From: Acidobacteriota bacterium
GTDB taxonomy: Bacteria > Acidobacteriota > Polarisedimenticolia > Gp22-AA2
Length of the DNA: 62,525 nt
Reading direction: 5' to 3'
NCBI GenBank assembly: GCA_018606725.1
Contig: JAGYID010000029.1
Coordinates: 1-62,525 of the forward strand
Each line of letters opens with the position of its first letter. The first letter of the stretch is position 1. Shown here in pieces: positions 16,024-55,270 of the stretch. A model generated the notes under the pieces. It saw only the letters and a list, made by a program, of their open reading frames with translations, made no database searches and had not been told where the DNA came from. The position numbers and the translations under genes were made by a program.

Positions 16024-16039
16024 TGGTACCGGCCTTGCT
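16024..16039 (+). promoter_or_regulatory. Sigma-54-type promoter of the small secreted protein
   Basis: TGGTAC (16024-16029), five bases, TTGCT (16035-16039). The GG and GC are separated by the required ten bases; only one position departs from TGGCAC-N5-TTGCW. RNA should start near 16050, 50 bases before the ATG. Confidence 0.6.
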
Positions 16040-17497: not shown

Positions 17498-18097
17498 CTA
17501 TTCCCGGACTTTGATTTGCAGCGGTTTCTCCAGAACCACCGTGAGCGACGCCTCCGGCGGCAACAGTACCGACCGGCCCGGTGCGCCACCGCCGATGACG
17601 CCATCGCGCACCACCTGGGTCGCGACACCGGTCTTGACGACGCGGGCGGCGATGTCGGCCGCCGCTCCGAACGGCGTGGTGATCCGCTCGAATTGCACGA
17701 TTAGCGTGCCGCCCTGCCTCCCGGCGCCCTGGCCCGCCGCGATCGCGCCCAGCACTTTCCCTTCGACGATCGAACCGCCCGGCAGAACGACCCGGCTTCC
17801 CTGGACGATCCCGTCGACCATCCTGCCGCGGAAGCGGTCGCCGGTCCGATTGGTCTCGGAGCTGAGCGGCTCGACGAGCGCCAGGTCCAGCGTGGTGCCT
17901 GCCGGGATCGTCGCGTCGCTCCAGCGAACCGGCGGAGCCGGCTTGTTGTCCGGCACGAGTCCACCAGCCTGGGCGGCCGGCGTGCCGCCTTCCGGAGCCT
18001 GCGGACCGCCACCGCAACCGATCGCCAGCGCCGAGACCATCAGTATGGCCGACAGAGGACGCACCTTCGATCTCCGACCGTCCAATCGATCGTTCAC
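17498..18097 (-). CDS. Lipoprotein paralogous to the downstream glycine-zipper lipoprotein
   Basis: 199 aa. After a basic N-terminus, the hydrophobic segment LSAILMVSALAIGC gives a lipobox. The domain starts IPAGTTLDLALVEPLSSETN and continues GDRFRGRMVDGI, VVLPGGSIVEGKV and FERITTPFG, aligning by eye with its neighbour but lacking a long glycine zipper (only VIGGGAPG). The start is GTG 18097, only about four bases from the predicted RNA start, with no ribosome site, so it is probably leaderless. A start at TTG a few codons in is possible. No function is known. Confidence 0.8.
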   Translation of the reverse strand: MNDRLDGRRSKVRPLSAILMVSALAIGCGGGPQAPEGGTPAAQAGGLVPDNKPAPPVRWSDATIPAGTTLDLALVEPLSSETNRTGDRFRGRMVDGIVQGSRVVLPGGSIVEGKVLGAIAAGQGAGRQGGTLIVQFERITTPFGAAADIAARVVKTGVATQVVRDGVIGGGAPGRSVLLPPEASLTVVLEKPLQIKVRE

Positions 18098-18107
18098 TGC
18101 AGTCCCT

Positions 18108-18135
18108 TATATAGACGATTCCGAGCCAGAGTCAA
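18108..18135 (-). promoter_or_regulatory. Promoter of the lipoprotein pair
   Basis: On the minus strand, TTGACT (18135-18130), a 16-base spacer and TATATA (18113-18108). RNA should start near 18101, four bases from the GTG. Confidence 0.72.
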
Positions 18136-18171
18136 ACAGACCAGGCGATCCTGTCATGCGCGTCCATTTCG

Positions 18172-18187
18172 TTGGACTAAGGTCCAA
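18172..18187. promoter_or_regulatory. Palindrome upstream of the porin promoter
   Basis: TTGGAC-TAAG-GTCCAA, perfect 6-base arms, centred about 150 bases upstream of the predicted porin RNA start. The distance suits an enhancer site for a sigma-54 activator. Confidence 0.4.
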
Positions 18188-18266
18188 TTGGTTGGCGATT
18201 TGGATCTCCTCCAGCCTCCATTGATCGCCCGACATGATGTGCTGTCGTGCTCCAAGTAATTGCTTT

Positions 18267-18280
18267 CCATAAGCTTATGG
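18267..18280. promoter_or_regulatory. Fourteen-base perfect palindrome upstream of the porin promoter
   Basis: CCATAAGCTTATGG, centred about 58 bases upstream of the predicted porin RNA start in an A+T-richer stretch. It may be a second activator or repressor site. Confidence 0.4.
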
Positions 18281-18305
18281 TTTTATCCAGAATCGTGCGG
18301 TGAAT

Positions 18306-18321
18306 TGGCAGCGGCCTTGCT
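18306..18321 (+). promoter_or_regulatory. Sigma-54 promoter of the porin gene
   Basis: TTGGCAG followed by five bases and TTGCTTTT: TGGCAG (18306-18311) and TTGCT (18317-18321), with GG and GC ten bases apart. This is close to the full consensus, including the T-rich end. The RNA would start near 18332, leaving a leader of about 220 bases. Confidence 0.72.
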
Positions 18322-18425
18322 TTTAGTGGCTCCGGGACTACTGTGTTCGCATGTCTTCAGATTCGTTTTGATTGAGTTCGACAACCAAAGCATGAGGAGG
18401 TGAGCGGGGGGGAAACACAAGAACA

Positions 18426-18482
18426 GCGGCCCGGCAAGACAGGGGGTACCCGACCCCATGCCGAAGTGAACCGCCGGCGCCG
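18426..18482 (+). other. 5S rRNA-like fragment in the porin leader
   Basis: The segment aligns with the loop B to helix II/III region of bacterial 5S rRNA. GACCCCATGCCGAA is identical to E. coli 5S as I remember it, then seven bases of the 5S hairpin loop are missing, and GTGAA, CGCCG and GCGCCG follow. The 20 bases between GCGGCC and GACCCC have the same length as in 5S. The 3' third of 5S is not recognisable, so it is a remnant or chance similarity, not a working 5S gene. The rest of the 458-base gap (18098-18555) holds the promoters and palindromes listed. Confidence 0.35.
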
Positions 18483-18555
18483 TAATCGGACTTGGACGTT
18501 TCACTCTTTCGCACAGGCGCAGTTGCAGTTCTCAACCCCACAGGGAGGTTCCCGA

Positions 18556-19878
18556 ATGAAGAAGTTCCTGTATCTGGCAGTCCTGGCGCTCGGCGTGGTG
18601 CTGCTGATGGCCCCGCCGGTGATGGCCCAGGAAGAGAAGCCGTTCACCATCCACGGCGAAGTACGGTTCCGGGGCGAGTACCAGAACAACGCCCAGGACC
18701 TGGACGACAACACGGACGACGGCGCGCTGTTCTGGCCGTATCGCGTCCGCATCGCCGCCGAGGGCCGCTTCACGAAGAACGTCACCGGCTGGATCGAGTT
18801 CCAGAACGGCGGCGTGGCCGGCGACACTCTTCCCTACCGAACCGGCGCGGGTGCTGACAGCGTCGAGCTCTACCAGGGGAACATCACGCTCGATCAGTTC
18901 ATCGGCAAGAACTTTAGCCTGAGAATCGGCCGCCAGGAGATCACTGCCGGCACCGAGCTGTTGCTCGGCGATCTCGACTTCTACCAGGGCCTGTCGCACG
19001 ACGGGCTCGTCGGCACCTGGCGCCTTAAGAAGGGCAGCATCACCGGCTGGTACACGAGGCCCTTCGAAAACAGCGTCGCCAGTGGCGGCTTCCTTCCACC
19101 CGACCAGGTCACGATCGGTTCCGCCGATAACACCACCCACTTCATGGGCGCCTATGCGACCTGGACAATTCTCAAGAATCAGTCGATCGACGTCTACCTG
19201 ATGGACACCATCGTGCGCCGCTCCGCCGCCGGGGCCTCGAGCGACGGCATCGACATCTACACGATCGGCGGCCGCTACGCGCGCGACATGTCTGGCAAGA
19301 CCGGCCTGTTCTGGAACGTCGAGTACGCCATCCAGAGCGGCAGCTTCGCGCAGGGTCCCGGCCCGGACGCCGATCTCTCCGGCAACGTCGGCGAGGGCTG
19401 GCTCGGCTGGAACATTCACAACAAGCAGAACAACCACCGCTTCTATGCCAAGCTGGCCATGGCGAGCGGCGATGACTCCACCACCGCAGACAACGAGGGG
19501 TTCCAGCCGTTGTTCGGCGATTTCCACAACCGCCTCGGCCGCGGTGACTGGTTCCAGCTCGCCGACAACACGACCGGCCTGGTGGGCGGCGTGTCGGGCG
19601 GCATCACCGCCCTATCGATCGGCTACACCGGCAACTACGGTGACAAACAGGAGTTCGGCGCGGCGCTCTGGCAGTACTCGCTCGACCAGGTTCCGTCGGG
19701 CGCCGACGACAATCTCGGATCCGCGATCGATGTCTGGTACGGCTACAACTACAGCCGCAATGTGGCCTTCCAGGCGTCTCTGTCGCAGCTGAGCCCGGGG
19801 GATGCCCTGACGGGCGGCGGCGGGGCTCCGGATGACGCCGTGACCCGTCTGTACGGTCAGGCTCGCCTGCGCTTCTAA
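18556..19878 (+). CDS. Outer-membrane porin, alginate-export (AlgE-like) family
   Basis: 440 aa. A signal peptide (MKKFLYLAVLALGVVLLMA, cleavage after VMAQ) precedes a beta-barrel of alternating strands: FTIHGEVRFRGEYQNNAQD, RIAAEGRFTKNVTGWIEF, FSLRIGRQEITAGTELLLGD, and the terminal LYGQARLRF ending in Phe as outer-membrane proteins do. RIGRQE and the FYQGLSHDGL segment fit alginate-export type porins. ATG 18556 follows GGAGG. The transported solute is unknown; the family name does not prove alginate. Expression is probably sigma-54 dependent. Confidence 0.87.
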   Translation: MKKFLYLAVLALGVVLLMAPPVMAQEEKPFTIHGEVRFRGEYQNNAQDLDDNTDDGALFWPYRVRIAAEGRFTKNVTGWIEFQNGGVAGDTLPYRTGAGADSVELYQGNITLDQFIGKNFSLRIGRQEITAGTELLLGDLDFYQGLSHDGLVGTWRLKKGSITGWYTRPFENSVASGGFLPPDQVTIGSADNTTHFMGAYATWTILKNQSIDVYLMDTIVRRSAAGASSDGIDIYTIGGRYARDMSGKTGLFWNVEYAIQSGSFAQGPGPDADLSGNVGEGWLGWNIHNKQNNHRFYAKLAMASGDDSTTADNEGFQPLFGDFHNRLGRGDWFQLADNTTGLVGGVSGGITALSIGYTGNYGDKQEFGAALWQYSLDQVPSGADDNLGSAIDVWYGYNYSRNVAFQASLSQLSPGDALTGGGGAPDDAVTRLYGQARLRF

Positions 19879-28937: not shown

Positions 28938-29629
28938 GCGCGGCCGCCGGCGGGCAGCTCCGCCATGGTGTCGCCGCCGGCGACCAGCATGCCGTTCTCG
29001 AGCGCGATGACGCGCCGCTGCATGCGGCGGATCATCTCGCGGTCGTGCGTGGCGATGAGGACGGTCGTGCCGTGCGAGTTGATCTGCTTGAACAGCGTCA
29101 TGATCTCGAGCGCCAGGTCGGGGTCGAGATTGCCGGTCGGCTCGTCGGCCAGCAGGATCAGCGGCCGGTTGACCAGCGCCCTGGCGATCGCCACCCGCTG
29201 CTGTTCGCCACCGGAGAGCTGCTCGGGGTAGTTGTGCAGGCGGTGGTTCAACCCCAGCATCTCGATCACCTGGTAGGTCCGCGCCCGCTGCTCGCGGGGC
29301 GGCATGCCGATCACCTGGGTGGCGTAGGCGACGTTCTCGAACACCGTCTTGCGCGGCAGCAGCTTGAAGTCCTGGAACACCACGCCGATCTGGCGGCGCA
29401 GGCCCGGGACCCGGCGGCGCGGCATGGTGGCGATGTTCTCGTTGCGCACCAGCACCTGCCCGGCGCTCGGGATCTCGTCGCGGAACAGCAGGCGCAAGAG
29501 CGTCGTCTTGCCGGCGCCGCTCGGCCCGGTGAGGAAGACGAACTCCCCCTTCTCGATGTGCAGGCTGACGTCCGACAGCGCCGGCGTCGCGGCGGCGTAT
29601 TTCTTGGTGACGTGGAAGAGCTGGATCAA
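28934..29629 (-). CDS. ftsE: Cell-division ATP-binding protein FtsE
   Basis: 231 aa cytoplasmic ATPase of the FtsEX complex. Walker A GPSGAGKTTLLRL, signature LSGGEQQRVAIARAL, Walker B LLADEPTGNLDPDL and the H-loop ATHDREM are all present. The first residues MIQLFHVTKKY are typical. It overlaps gatB upstream by four bases and ftsX downstream by four bases, so the three genes are translationally coupled. Confidence 0.96.
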   Translation of the reverse strand: MIQLFHVTKKYAAATPALSDVSLHIEKGEFVFLTGPSGAGKTTLLRLLFRDEIPSAGQVLVRNENIATMPRRRVPGLRRQIGVVFQDFKLLPRKTVFENVAYATQVIGMPPREQRARTYQVIEMLGLNHRLHNYPEQLSGGEQQRVAIARALVNRPLILLADEPTGNLDPDLALEIMTLFKQINSHGTTVLIATHDREMIRRMQRRVIALENGMLVAGGDTMAELPAGGRA

Positions 29630-30978
29630 CGGTCGAGCCGCTCTTTGAGGAGCCGGTTGACCAGCGCCGGGTTGGCCTTGCCGCCGGTCGCCTTCAGGAC
29701 CTGGCCGACGAAGTAACCGAGCAGCGTCGTCTTGCCGGCCTTGTACTGGGCGAGCTGCCCCGGGCTGGCGGCGACGACCTTCTCGATCGCCTCCTCGAGC
29801 GCCCCCTCGTCGCTGACCTGCGCCAGCCCGCTGGAGCGGATGACCTCGTCGGGGTCCTGGCCGGTGCGCAGGATGGTCTCGAGCACCTCCTTGCCGGTGC
29901 TGCCGGAGACGGTGCCGTCCTTGACGCGCGCGATCAACCCGCCAAGGCGCTCTGGCGGCAGCTTGCTCTTCAGGACCACGATGTCGAAGCCCCCCTCCTT
30001 CATGCGGGCGAGGACTTCGCCGCTGATCCAGTTGGCGGCGGCCTTGTGATCACCGGCCGCTGTCGCAGTCGCCTCGAAATAATCCGCCATAGGCTGACTC
30101 GAGGTCAGGGTGGTCGCGACCTGCGCGAGCAGCCCGTATGCCGTGATGTATTCCTCGCGCCGCTGCGACAAGAGCTTGGCCGGCAGGCTCTTCCGGACCT
30201 CCTCGATCCACTCCTTTTCGACCAACAACGGCAGCAGATCCGGCTCGGGGAAATAGCGGTAGTCGTGCGCTTCCTCCTTCGAGCGCATCGTATACGTCTT
30301 GTCCTCCTCGGAGTCGTACAGGCGGGTCTCCTGCGCGACCCTTTGTCCGGCGTCGAGCAGTTGAGTCTGCCGGCGGATCTCGTACTCCAGCGCCTTCTGC
30401 ACGAACCGGAACGAGTTGAGGTTCTTCAGCTCGGCCTTGGTCCCGAAGGCCGCCTGCCCCTTCGGGCGCAGCGACACGTTGGCATCGCAGCGCAGCGAGC
30501 CCTCCTCCATGTTGCCGTCCGTGACGCCGATGTCCACCAGGAGATTGCGCAGCGCGGAGTAATAGGCGTGCGCCTCCTCCGGCGAGCGCAGGTCGCCGGC
30601 GTCCTCCTCCATGTGGATGCGGGTGATGCCGATGCGCCGCCTGGCGCCGCCGGCCTCGATGTCGAGGTGCCCGCCGACCGCCAGCGGCTGGTCGTACATG
30701 GAGATCTGGTACCCCTTCGGCAGGTCGGGGTAGAAGTAGTTCTTGCGCGCGAAGATCGAGCGCGGCCGGATGTCGCAGTCGAGCGTCAGCGCGGCACGGA
30801 TGGCGTAGTCGACCGCCGTCCGGTTGAGCACCGGCAGCGAGCCCGGCATGCCGAGGCAGATCGGGCAGACGTTGGTATTGGGCGGATCGCCGAAGCGGGT
30901 CCGGCAGCCGCAGAAGATCTTCGATGCGGTCAGGAGCTGACAGTGGACTTCCAGGCCGATGATCGTTTCGTAGGTCAT
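29626..30978 (-). CDS. gatB: Asp-tRNA(Asn)/Glu-tRNA(Gln) amidotransferase subunit B
   Basis: 450 aa. GatB binds mischarged tRNA and performs the ATP-dependent transamidation with GatA. Motifs: IGLEVHCQLLTASKIFCGC, NVCPICLGMPGSLPVLN, DLPKGYQISMYDQPLA, MEEDAGDL, GSLRCDANVSLRP and DYRYFPEPDLLPL. The Yqey domain follows (about 300-450), ending with GYFVGQVLKATGGKANP. The family is usually about 475 aa, so it is slightly short. GatA and GatC are not in this window. On the minus strand, TATAAT (31001-30996) 17 bases before the ATG is a probable -10 box. Confidence 0.95.
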   Translation of the reverse strand: MTYETIIGLEVHCQLLTASKIFCGCRTRFGDPPNTNVCPICLGMPGSLPVLNRTAVDYAIRAALTLDCDIRPRSIFARKNYFYPDLPKGYQISMYDQPLAVGGHLDIEAGGARRRIGITRIHMEEDAGDLRSPEEAHAYYSALRNLLVDIGVTDGNMEEGSLRCDANVSLRPKGQAAFGTKAELKNLNSFRFVQKALEYEIRRQTQLLDAGQRVAQETRLYDSEEDKTYTMRSKEEAHDYRYFPEPDLLPLLVEKEWIEEVRKSLPAKLLSQRREEYITAYGLLAQVATTLTSSQPMADYFEATATAAGDHKAAANWISGEVLARMKEGGFDIVVLKSKLPPERLGGLIARVKDGTVSGSTGKEVLETILRTGQDPDEVIRSSGLAQVSDEGALEEAIEKVVAASPGQLAQYKAGKTTLLGYFVGQVLKATGGKANPALVNRLLKERLDR

Positions 30979-30995
30979 GGGGTGCGCCGGCGGGG

Positions 30996-31003
30996 ATTAT
31001 ACT
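30996..31003. promoter_or_regulatory. Overlapping divergent -10 boxes between gatB and the M1 peptidase
   Basis: ATTATACT holds TATAAT on the minus strand (31001-30996) and TATACT on the plus strand (30998-31003). Good -35 hexamers at standard spacing are not seen on either side, so at most one may be active. Confidence 0.4.
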
Positions 31004-31031
31004 GCGTGGCCTCGTGGCAAGGAGATCATCC

Positions 31032-33419
31032 ATGTCGCCTGCGTCGGTCCGGAGACTGGGGATTGTCATGCTCGCCATCGCGCTGGCGCCGGCTGTGGCC
31101 GTCCGCTCCCCGGCGCAATCGCCGACGGCGCCCGCCCCCGCTGCCGCCGGCGGTATCGACTTCGGCGCCCAGCGCGAGGCGATCTTCGACGCCTTCTACA
31201 AGACCGGCCTCGATACCTCCAAGGCGTATACGGTCAAGGACCTGGCGATCAAGAAGGACAACGTGACCCTGCTGCTGAAGCAGGGGACGGTGTTCCTGCT
31301 ACGGCCGATCGCCGGCGAGGTCACCGGCGCCGTCTTCCTCGGCGACGGCGAGGCGCAGATGATCCCCCCGAACCGCACCCAGCGCTACATGCTGAAGAAG
31401 GCGTCGGGCGCGGAGATCCTTCAAGAGCAGTTTACCGAGGCGGCTTTGCGGTTCTGCGACGGCACGCACCGCGTGATCATCGGCGCCGGGTCGCCTGATC
31501 CGGGCGGCGTCGACAAGGCGGAACGGGCTTCGAAGGTCCTCGAGGAGCGCAACGCCTGGCTGAACGGCGATCGCGACCTGCAGCTCGAGATGCAGCTGCT
31601 GGAGGCCAGGATTTCGGGTCTCAAGGGTCAGGACTTCTTCGTCGCCGACCTGCACACGCTCCGGCACGACTGGCTGCTCTATCTCTACAATCCGCAGACC
31701 ATCCACGAGAACACCCTGATGACGAGCGAGACCGTCGGTGCCAAGGGTCGCCGTTACTTCATCGACTGGGCCCGCTGGCACAAGAGCGGCGACTACGACC
31801 AGGCCGGTCACTACGTCATGCTGCCCGGCCGCGACGGGCCGCGGGTCATGCGGATCGCCAACAACGACATGACGCTGACCCTGGAGAACACCAAGACGCT
31901 GCAGTGGACCTCGACCACCACGACCAATCCGCTCATCGACAATCTCCGGGCCCTGCGCTTCGACCTGGTGAACAACGCCAGCGTCGAGAGCCACTGGTAC
32001 GACGATTCCTTCTACCCGGTGCGCGTGACCTCGGTGGTCTCCGCCGACGGCCAGCCGCTGCCGTTCATGCACAGGAGGGATCAGCTCCTGGTGCTCCTGC
32101 CGCAGCCGGCGAGGCTGGGGGCCCCGGTGAGCATCACCGCGGTCGGGACCGCCGAGGTCATCTACCAGGTCACCCCGGAGTCGTTCGGTCTGCTCGAGGC
32201 CCCGTTCTATCCCCAGTACGGCGAGCGGGGCGGTCGGGCGACCTTCCACTGGACCATCAGGGCGCCGAAGCAGTTCACCATGGCCGGGTCCGGCCGGGTG
32301 GTCAGGGAATTTCTCGACAAGGACAGGGGACAGAACGTCATCGAGCTGCAGAGCGACATCCCGGTCAACTTCCCATGGGCGCTGTTCGGACAGCTGTACA
32401 AGTCGGACGGCTCCTACACGAGCGAGAGCACCGGCAAGACGGTCCATCTCACCATTCACACGACGACGATCGGCGGCTCCGGGACGCCCATGAAGAAGGT
32501 GCAGGGCTTCTTCGAGCAGACGCAGCAGATCCTCAAGACCTTCGAGACCGTGTACGGCCCCTACCCCTACGACGAGCTGCACATCGCCCAGATGGGTCCG
32601 GGGCTCGGTTTCGGCCAGGGACCGCCCTATTTCGTGCAACTGACCGGCGAGGCCTTCAGCGACGTGTCGAGTCTCGGCAGCGGCTCGGTCCACGGCTTCC
32701 TGTCGCACGAGATCGCCCACCAGTGGTGGGGCAACCAGGTCGGCTGGGCGTCCGAAGACGACGACTGGCTGAGCGAGGGATTCGCCGAGTACGCCGCGGG
32801 AACCTACATCCAGGGACTCCAGAAGCAGGCCGGTCTGCAGCGCACGCTCGACGACTGGCGCCTGGAGGCCAAGAACGCCGACAAGGAGGCGCCGATCGCC
32901 GCGGCCAGCATGCTCAACGGCCCGAATGCCGCGATGTACCGCACCGGTCTGCTGTACAACAAGGCGCCGTATGTCCTGCACATGCTGCGCGTGCAGCTCG
33001 GTGACGAGACGTATCTCAAGGCCATGCGCGCCATCCAGGAGACCTGCAGGAACCAGGACGTATCGACGGAGATGATCCTGCGCGAGATCAATCGCGCCGC
33101 CGGCGCGGATTACAGCTCGTTCTTCGACCAGTGGATCTGGGGCGTCGGCATCCCGACCTTCCGCTATTCGTGGCGCTCCGAGAAGCAGCCCGACGGCAAG
33201 TTCCTGATCACCGTGCACATCGGCCAGGACGACAAGGTCAACTTCAAGAAGGTGCTGATGCCGATCCACCTGCACTCCAAGGACAAGACCATCCCGACGC
33301 AGTTCAGGCCGGTCGTTCAGCCCGAGCAGGACATCAAGCTGCTCTCTCCGATCGACCCCAAGGACGTCACCCTGGACGACGATCGCACCCTGCTGGCTGA
33401 CTTCTTCAAGGCCGGGTGA
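31032..33419 (+). CDS. M1-family metallopeptidase-like protein, exported
   Basis: 795 aa. A signal peptide (LGIVMLAIALAPAVAV) is followed by a long N-terminal region typical of acidobacterial M1 peptidases, then the zinc site HEIAHQWWG (about residue 559) with the downstream ligand Glu in WLSEGFAEYAAG about 18 residues on. The GAMEN exopeptidase motif expected before the zinc site is not recognisable (MGPGLGFGQG occupies that place), so substrate binding may differ from aminopeptidase N. ATG 31032 follows AAGGAG at seven bases. It is probably periplasmic. The hydrolase gene nine bases downstream is in the same operon. Confidence 0.88.
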   Translation: MSPASVRRLGIVMLAIALAPAVAVRSPAQSPTAPAPAAAGGIDFGAQREAIFDAFYKTGLDTSKAYTVKDLAIKKDNVTLLLKQGTVFLLRPIAGEVTGAVFLGDGEAQMIPPNRTQRYMLKKASGAEILQEQFTEAALRFCDGTHRVIIGAGSPDPGGVDKAERASKVLEERNAWLNGDRDLQLEMQLLEARISGLKGQDFFVADLHTLRHDWLLYLYNPQTIHENTLMTSETVGAKGRRYFIDWARWHKSGDYDQAGHYVMLPGRDGPRVMRIANNDMTLTLENTKTLQWTSTTTTNPLIDNLRALRFDLVNNASVESHWYDDSFYPVRVTSVVSADGQPLPFMHRRDQLLVLLPQPARLGAPVSITAVGTAEVIYQVTPESFGLLEAPFYPQYGERGGRATFHWTIRAPKQFTMAGSGRVVREFLDKDRGQNVIELQSDIPVNFPWALFGQLYKSDGSYTSESTGKTVHLTIHTTTIGGSGTPMKKVQGFFEQTQQILKTFETVYGPYPYDELHIAQMGPGLGFGQGPPYFVQLTGEAFSDVSSLGSGSVHGFLSHEIAHQWWGNQVGWASEDDDWLSEGFAEYAAGTYIQGLQKQAGLQRTLDDWRLEAKNADKEAPIAAASMLNGPNAAMYRTGLLYNKAPYVLHMLRVQLGDETYLKAMRAIQETCRNQDVSTEMILREINRAAGADYSSFFDQWIWGVGIPTFRYSWRSEKQPDGKFLITVHIGQDDKVNFKKVLMPIHLHSKDKTIPTQFRPVVQPEQDIKLLSPIDPKDVTLDDDRTLLADFFKAG

Positions 33420-33428
33420 CGCGGCGCC

Positions 33429-34367
33429 GTGGGCTGGGAGTCGACGTCGTTCCAGGTCATCCGCACCCTTCTCGTCGCCGGCGGCCTGTGCGTGGCCGCG
33501 GTGCTGGGGTTGAAGGTGCTCGTCCTGGTCGCCGAGCCGCACATGGCGTTCATGCCGCCTTCGGGCGACGCGGCGGCGCCATCGGACTTCGCCCTGCCGG
33601 CGGAGCCGTTCGAGACCGTCACCGTCGACGGGATGCGGCTGCGCGGCTGGTTGATCCCGGCCAGGGCGCCCGGCGGAGCCGGCGCGCCGCGGATGGGCGC
33701 CGTCGCCTCCAGAGCGCCGCTCACCATCCTGTTCTTCCACGGCAACGCCGAGAACATCAGCCACTGCCTCGAGCTGGGGATGTTGACCCGGTCGGCGGGG
33801 TACAACCTGGCGCTGGTCGACTATCGCGGCTACGGCGGGAACCGGGGGCAGCCGTCCGAGACCGGACTGTATCGCGACGGCGAGGCGGCGCTGCGCGCCG
33901 TGCGCGGCCTGCGCGGCGTCGACCCGGCGCGCGTCGTCGTCTGGGGCCGTTCGATCGGCGCGGCCGTGGCGGTGCACCTGGCCGCCGCGACGCCGGCCGG
34001 CGCCGCGCCCACGGCGACCGGCGATCAGGCGGGCCCCCCGGCCGGGGTCATCCTGGAGTCGCCGTTCACCTCGGTGCAGGATCTGCTGCGGGAAGGCGGT
34101 CACCCGCTGCTGCTGGCGTTGTCGCGGCTCGGCACGTTCCGGTTCGATTCGGCGGCGGCGATCCGACGGGTTCGGTCGCCGCTCCTGATCATCCACGGCA
34201 CCGCGGACGAGATCGCGCCGTTCGCGCTGGGGCAGCGGCTCTACGGCCTGGCGCCGGGACGGAGGGAGCTGGCGGCGATCGCTGGCGGCGGCCACAACGA
34301 TCTGATGGCGCTGCACGCCGCCGAGTTGTGGGCCGCCGCCGACCGCTTCCTGAAATCGCTCGACTGA
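33429..34367 (+). CDS. Membrane-anchored alpha/beta hydrolase
   Basis: 312 aa. One N-terminal helix (VIRTLLVAGGLCVAAVLGLKVLV) anchors a serine-hydrolase domain of the BEM46/ABHD13 type. The oxyanion-region FFHGNAENIS, nucleophile elbow GRSIGAA (Ser at about residue 176), acid in GTADEIAP and His in GGGHNDL complete the triad. An Ala/Gly-rich insert lies near residues 80-95. The start is GTG 33429, nine bases after the upstream stop. It may be an esterase or thioesterase; the substrate is unknown. Confidence 0.88.
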   Translation: MGWESTSFQVIRTLLVAGGLCVAAVLGLKVLVLVAEPHMAFMPPSGDAAAPSDFALPAEPFETVTVDGMRLRGWLIPARAPGGAGAPRMGAVASRAPLTILFFHGNAENISHCLELGMLTRSAGYNLALVDYRGYGGNRGQPSETGLYRDGEAALRAVRGLRGVDPARVVVWGRSIGAAVAVHLAAATPAGAAPTATGDQAGPPAGVILESPFTSVQDLLREGGHPLLLALSRLGTFRFDSAAAIRRVRSPLLIIHGTADEIAPFALGQRLYGLAPGRRELAAIAGGGHNDLMALHAAELWAAADRFLKSLD

Positions 34368-48536: not shown

Positions 48537-49988
<1,452 letters not shown>

Positions 49989-54776: not shown

Positions 54777-54805
54777 AGTATAGGACCGCCCTCCCCGGCC
54801 GTCAA
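54777..54805 (-). promoter_or_regulatory. Sigma-70-type promoter of degP
   Basis: On the minus strand, TTGACG (54805-54800), a 17-base spacer and TATACT (54782-54777). The TGA within the -35 hexamer is the stop codon of the receiver gene upstream. Confidence 0.82.
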
Positions 54806-55239
54806 GAAACGCCCCGGTCGCGCAGCTCATCGCGCGCCGGGTTCGCCGCCGCCGGTTCATCCTGCAGCGCCGCCCGGATGCTGGAGAGCAGGCGGGCCGC
54901 GTCGACCGGTTTCTCGATGACCTCGGTCACGCCCAGGCGGCCGGCCCGGCGTCGCAGCTCGTCGCTGATCAGGGCGCTGATCAGCAGCACCGCCGGACCG
55001 GAAGCGCGAGGGACCGCCGTCTCCGCACGGCGCACGCATGCCAGCAGGTCGAGCCCGGCCATGCGGGGCATCATCTGATCGAGGATGAGGAGGTCGATTC
55101 CCGCGAGGGGGGCCGGATCGCTGAGCAGGCGCTCCGGCTCGTCGGAAAGCACCACCCGGTGTCCGAGCCGCTTCAGGAGGCGTCCGTAGGCCTCGAGGGA
55201 AGCGCGGTCGTCGTCGACGACGAGGATGGTTCGCACCAT
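54802..55239 (-). CDS. Stand-alone receiver (CheY/Spo0F-like) response regulator
   Basis: 145 aa, a single receiver domain. The acidic pocket DDD is at residues 9-11, the acceptor is D54 in LLILDQMMPRM, a conserved Ser sits in LLISALIS, and the Lys is in VIEKPVD. There is no output domain, only a short Pro/Asp-rich tail. No ribosome site precedes the ATG, which lies about six bases from the expected sigma-54 RNA start. It follows the kinase-ligA-NtrC operon and precedes degP. It may be a phosphate relay or sink, or bind a protein target; the target is unknown. Confidence 0.9.
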   Translation of the reverse strand: MVRTILVVDDDRASLEAYGRLLKRLGHRVVLSDEPERLLSDPAPLAGIDLLILDQMMPRMAGLDLLACVRRAETAVPRASGPAVLLISALISDELRRRAGRLGVTEVIEKPVDAARLLSSIRAALQDEPAAANPARDELRDRGVS

Positions 55240-55254
55240 GACCCGGAGTGAGAC

Positions 55255-55270
55255 AGCAAGCGGTGTGCCA
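55255..55270 (-). promoter_or_regulatory. Sigma-54 promoter of the stand-alone receiver gene
   Basis: On the minus strand, TGGCAC (55270-55265), five bases and TTGCT (55259-55255), a match to every invariant position of the -24/-12 consensus. RNA should begin near 55245, a few bases before the ATG. Confidence 0.82.

Follow-up and report, generated by a model that had tools for sequence, protein, structure and literature searches.

The window analysed here is the whole 62,525-nucleotide stretch of contig JAGYID010000029.1 from an Acidobacteriota bacterium (GCA_018606725.1; Polarisedimenticolia, Gp22-AA2). On its forward strand, at 18556-19878, lies a gene for a 440-residue protein that the first-pass annotation had called an outer membrane (OM) porin, and PF13372 (9.7e-15) agrees with this, identifying it as an OM protein of the alginate-export family. 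The protein has a signal-peptide-like start and a C-terminus ending in Phe (...QARLRF). Of 60 related genomes, 20 contained relatives of it, those near and named being Acidobacteria group 22 MAGs, and comparison with solved structures gave spurious matches only. Between the porin and a divergent gene (17498-18097) lie a tandem pair of dyads, an A+T-richer spacer, a -24/-12 promoter and a 5' leader with conserved blocks. In one relative (G011), the locus that carries the porin also has, close to its end, a group II intron match above the gathering score (RF02001; L024:47-257, minus strand).

The sigma-54 promoter that had been proposed for the porin, TGGCAG-N5-TTGCTTTT, is present on the forward strand at 18306-18321 (TGGCAG-CGGCC-TTGCT), with a start expected near 18332. 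It has the GG/GC core, the -24/-12 spacing, a near-consensus word and enhancer sites upstream, and the genome encodes rpoN (PF04552, 1.2e-64). Across the window, TGGCAC-N5-TTGCW with up to two mismatches was matched 14 times against 17.3 expected; six-base arms with a 4-base gap occur 57 times, and perfect 14-bp palindromes 25 times. Because the promoter and palindrome words are each at chance frequency in the window, we used conservation as the deciding test. Six same-family and four same-order genomes have TGGCA[GA]-N5-TTGC[AT] at the equivalent position, 232-413 bp before the matched porin start, and a -24/-12 site is also visible in a seventh same-family genome (G007), on a cut contig or contig end. 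Among the more distant porins of the class, the -24/-12 versions are weaker or absent. Since all readable same-family and same-order orthologs keep the site, it is, on this comparative evidence, a genuine sigma-54 promoter.

Two other sigma-54-like words were seen in the window. One mismatch from the consensus, TGGTACCGGCCTTGCT (16024-16039) stands some 40 bases ahead of 16079, the likely start of a secreted-protein gene that relatives retain, and a perfect consensus, TGGCACACCGCTTGCT, stands on the minus strand (55255-55270) before a receiver-domain gene (54802-55239). In three same-order relatives (L024, L025, L027), a strong sigma-70-like TTGACA...TATATA lies upstream of the porin enhancer, and may represent a second, distal promoter there.

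Upstream of the porin promoter are two forward-strand dyads of the form RTCCAW-N4-TTGRAY, both imperfect in this genome (one and two mismatches): dyad A, GTCCATTTCGTTGGAC (18162-18177), 144 bp upstream of the -24 element, and dyad B, GTCCAATTGGTTGGCG (18182-18197), 124 bp upstream. Eight relatives have a counterpart of dyad A, 146-148 bp upstream of the -24 element; dyad B is matched 125-127 bp upstream in the five other same-family genomes (four of the five perfect), and three same-order genomes have half-site matches to it at 126-127 bp. Overall, the first dyad is 144-148 bp from the -24 element and the second, where recognisable, 123-127 bp (144-148 and 124-127 bp in most relatives), a near constant spacing although leader length differs widely among relatives. 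Shuffling the upstream regions 300 times per genome produced such a dyad-promoter pair once at most. One genome (G003) has two perfect RTCCAA-N4-TTGGAY sites with no -24/-12 site in range. Across 32 dyads compiled from this family and others, TCCA and TTGG hardly vary, yet these sites were picked by a pattern requiring most of those bases, and the flanking R, A and Y are more telling.

The first of two palindromes put forward earlier as enhancers, TTGGAC-TAAG-GTCCAA (18172-18187), does exist and lies inside this conserved operator, but it is out of register, being made of the right half of dyad A and the left half of dyad B. The 4-base gap within each dyad is fixed, but the gap between dyads varies from 4 to 6 bases in relatives; thus TTGGAC-N4-GTCCAA is the junction of two operators, is not itself conserved, and the unit is RTCCAW-N4-TTGRAY. 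Its suggested use as a genome-wide marker fell away, as the genome holds one copy only. The second palindrome, CCATAAGCTTATGG (18267-18280), is likewise present, but it is one of the 25 in the window, has a unique copy in the genome and a counterpart in no relative; we rejected it as an enhancer, and it is probably not functional. The A+T-richer stretch around it is real and kept within the family: in six same-family genomes the spacer from enhancer to promoter (18198-18305 here) has a GC content of 0.43-0.50 against 0.62-0.71 upstream, and it is a candidate for looping or bending. Comparison across genomes indicates that the operator is the tandem pair of RTCCAW-N4-TTGRAY dyads at 18162-18197 and that the enhancer is real. 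Together with the conserved promoter and rpoN, the conserved dyads support the original proposal that the porin is served by a sigma-54 promoter with an upstream enhancer.

The 5' leader of the porin transcript contains further conserved blocks. GGAGGTGA (18396-18403, forward strand), which reads AAGGAGGTGA in relatives, is complementary to the 16S rRNA 3' end and has a version in all 10 leaders read; in eight it lies 78-90 bases past the -24 element. Between promoter and porin, AAGGAGGTGA and CAGGGGGNACCCGNCCCC are common to the same-family genomes, and the core CAGGGGGNACCCGNCCCC precedes the porin in six of these genomes and was found ahead of no other gene of the class. The conserved part (18396-18482) thus comprises a AAGGAGGTGA-like motif, a G-run and a stem around CAGGGGGNACCCGNCCCC; in this genome the stem, 18427-18435 with 18473-18482 on the forward strand, encloses CAGGGGGTACCCGACCCC (18440-18457) and delimits a candidate structured RNA at 18427-18482. 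Its energy compared with shuffled sequences gave p values of 0.003-0.07, below 0.05 in five of six leaders, and in a hand-made alignment outer stem pairs change on both sides. No Rfam family matched the leader regions at its gathering score. A leader peptide was rejected, as by our reading the conserved block lies in different frames across relatives and no start codon stands at the usual distance after GGAGGTGA. A leader resembling 5S rRNA was rejected too, since the genome's single 5S match lies elsewhere and the leader matches no Rfam family. In G005 the leader motif occurs a second time in the genome, inside a coding sequence, and that copy was set aside. The porin leader at 18396-18482 is a candidate for a new cis-acting RNA, as judged from six related sequences, which are few.

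We searched for the dyad-promoter arrangement in 41 genomes of the class as TCCA-N5-TTG, 104-134 bases, then TGGCA-N6-TTGC, with a reversed control. The matches were the porin promoter and one family f3 gene only, which reads like a small OM barrel without a Pfam match; no place matched in the reversed control. A stricter form of the pattern, applied to 396 Acidobacteriota genomes, matched 33 places in 30 of them, the promoter of this porin included, against one genome in the reversed control. Outside the order there are 24 such places: eight stand before Oar-like proteins, with CarboxypepD_reg and an OMP barrel (the one in L124 was assigned by eye), three precede other OM barrels or barrel-like proteins, seven precede operons encoding a PDZ-domain kinase and a sigma-54 activator, and six fit no theme, several of these lying inside coding sequence. 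At the PDZ-kinase loci read further (L115-L120), a sigma-54 response regulator comes next in at least five of six, that of L117 having been seen in the tree. In three families the dyads precede the kinase/activator operon itself. The first-pass annotation had taken the porin promoter to suggest nutrient-conditional uptake; these targets suggest control of OM proteins more broadly.

The counterpart of this operon in our genome, its one ortholog of the pair, lies on contig 179. It encodes a PDZ-domain sensor kinase (29299-32112; PDZ/PAS/HisKA/HATPase, with PF00512, PF02518 and PF13180) and, directly after it, a sigma-54 activator (32109-33557; PF00072, PF00158, PF02954) with receiver, AAA+ activation and Fis-type DNA-binding domains. 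The two genes (L121:3300-7558) overlap by 4 bases and are followed by an Oar-like TonB-type gene. In most genomes read, ours included, the pair adjoins CarboxypepD_reg or TonB-type OM genes, and in seven of eight further loci the gene upstream has one of these domains, some below the curated cut-off. The activator is 51-56% identical to the activators under dyads, against 42-50% for the next paralogs of this genome, and in each of the seven genomes with dyads before the operon the best match of its DNA-binding end is that operon's activator. A tree groups this activator (L059) with 14 such activators, from its own and eight further families, in a single clade (98/95). In this genome the kinase gene is preceded by no clean dyads or -24/-12 site. 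Whether activator and pattern occur together was uninformative, as the activator's DNA-binding end finds a match in 67 of 71 genomes searched and most sampled genomes have the family whether or not the pattern matches.

The reading that we favour, at a probability of roughly 0.8, is that the contig-179 pair drives the porin through sigma-54 via the tandem dyads. The first-pass annotation had expected an activator other than that of the window's receiver gene, and this seems right: the window's own three activators (569, 49071 and 55888) are probably not involved, and the best candidate is on contig 179. The main competitor accepts promoter and dyads as real and has one of the genome's 19 other activators bind them, for example that at 49071 or 55888. 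There are twenty strong activator domains in the genome, and no activator gene stands beside the porin in any relative read; against this, the dyads precede the PDZ-kinase/activator operon in three families, and the 98/95 clade contains a single activator of this genome and none of the 19 others, which makes such a binder improbable.

A repressor operator at the dyads, acting on the divergent gene or the porin independently of sigma-54, is very unlikely. They are indeed intergenic, dyad-symmetric and 65-100 bp from the divergent start, but their distance to the -24 element shifts by no more than a few bases, against a range of 232 to 413 from promoter to porin start, and dyads and promoter recur jointly before unrelated OM genes. 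Least credible of all is a chance sigma-54-like word with ordinary palindromes before a constitutively expressed porin, since, common as each word alone is in the window, the arrangement is conserved and recurs across the phylum against a nearly empty reversed control, and no sigma-70-like site was found at 18050-18560.

If the contig-179 pair does act here, porin transcription would start near 18332 from the sigma-54 promoter; the activator, a two-component enhancer-binding protein, would bind the two dyads (18162-18197), the A+T-rich spacer would loop, and the activated protein would remodel RNA polymerase-sigma-54. The porin would then belong to a conserved acidobacterial regulon in which the kinase/activator pair controls OM barrels and, in several families, itself. 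The signal is perhaps the assembly state of the OM. Hydropathy predicts a membrane span on each side of the kinase PDZ domain (residues 30-107), which may therefore face the periplasm. DegS uses a periplasmic PDZ domain, and by analogy the kinase could hypothetically be a sensor of unassembled OM proteins. A bolder version, in which the PDZ kinase reads OM-protein assembly and resets OM barrels and TonB-type transporters phylum-wide, with the new structured leader of the porin adding a second layer of control, is speculative and rather unlikely to hold in full.

The arrangement shares with NtrC/AtoC/ZraR-type systems a -24/-12 promoter, paired dyads about 125-147 bp upstream, and a response regulator with AAA+ and Fis-type domains partnered by a histidine kinase. 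It differs in its enhancer word (RTCCAA-N4-TTGGAY), in a PDZ sensor with many predicted membrane spans and in its OM targets. The contig-179 pair falls below all the NCBIfam equivalog cut-offs considered (PrsK/PrsR, AtoS/AtoC, NtrC, ZraR, GlrR). PrsK/PrsR, regulators of PEP-CTERM/exosortase systems, likewise couple a histidine kinase with a sigma-54 response regulator, but the scores are 137.8 bits against a cut-off of 300 (PrsK) and 363.3 against 502.6 (PrsR), and the targets here are OM barrels. Envelope-related control is shared with QseE/QseF (GlrK/GlrR) and DegS/sigma-E; compared with these, the PDZ domain here is part of the kinase, and the activator scores 343.6 bits against the GlrR cut-off of 763. 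At sigma-54 promoters, QseF works by way of upstream activating sequences (PMC6075780). The idea that sigma-54 controls the exterior, proposed by Francke et al. (2011; PMC3162934), fits in its general theme; their text mentions neither Acidobacteria nor porins nor PDZ domains.

Acidobacteriota are widespread in soils and other habitats. In a partial coverage of the literature we found no description of a dyad/sigma-54 OM regulon and no account of how these bacteria choose their OM transporters, and a phylum-wide sigma-54 regulon of OM genes is apparently undescribed so far. The sequence evidence points to a circuit that controls the outer membrane across the phylum Acidobacteriota. With its enhancer word, promoter, likely activator and targets now named together, the whole circuit can be tested as one.
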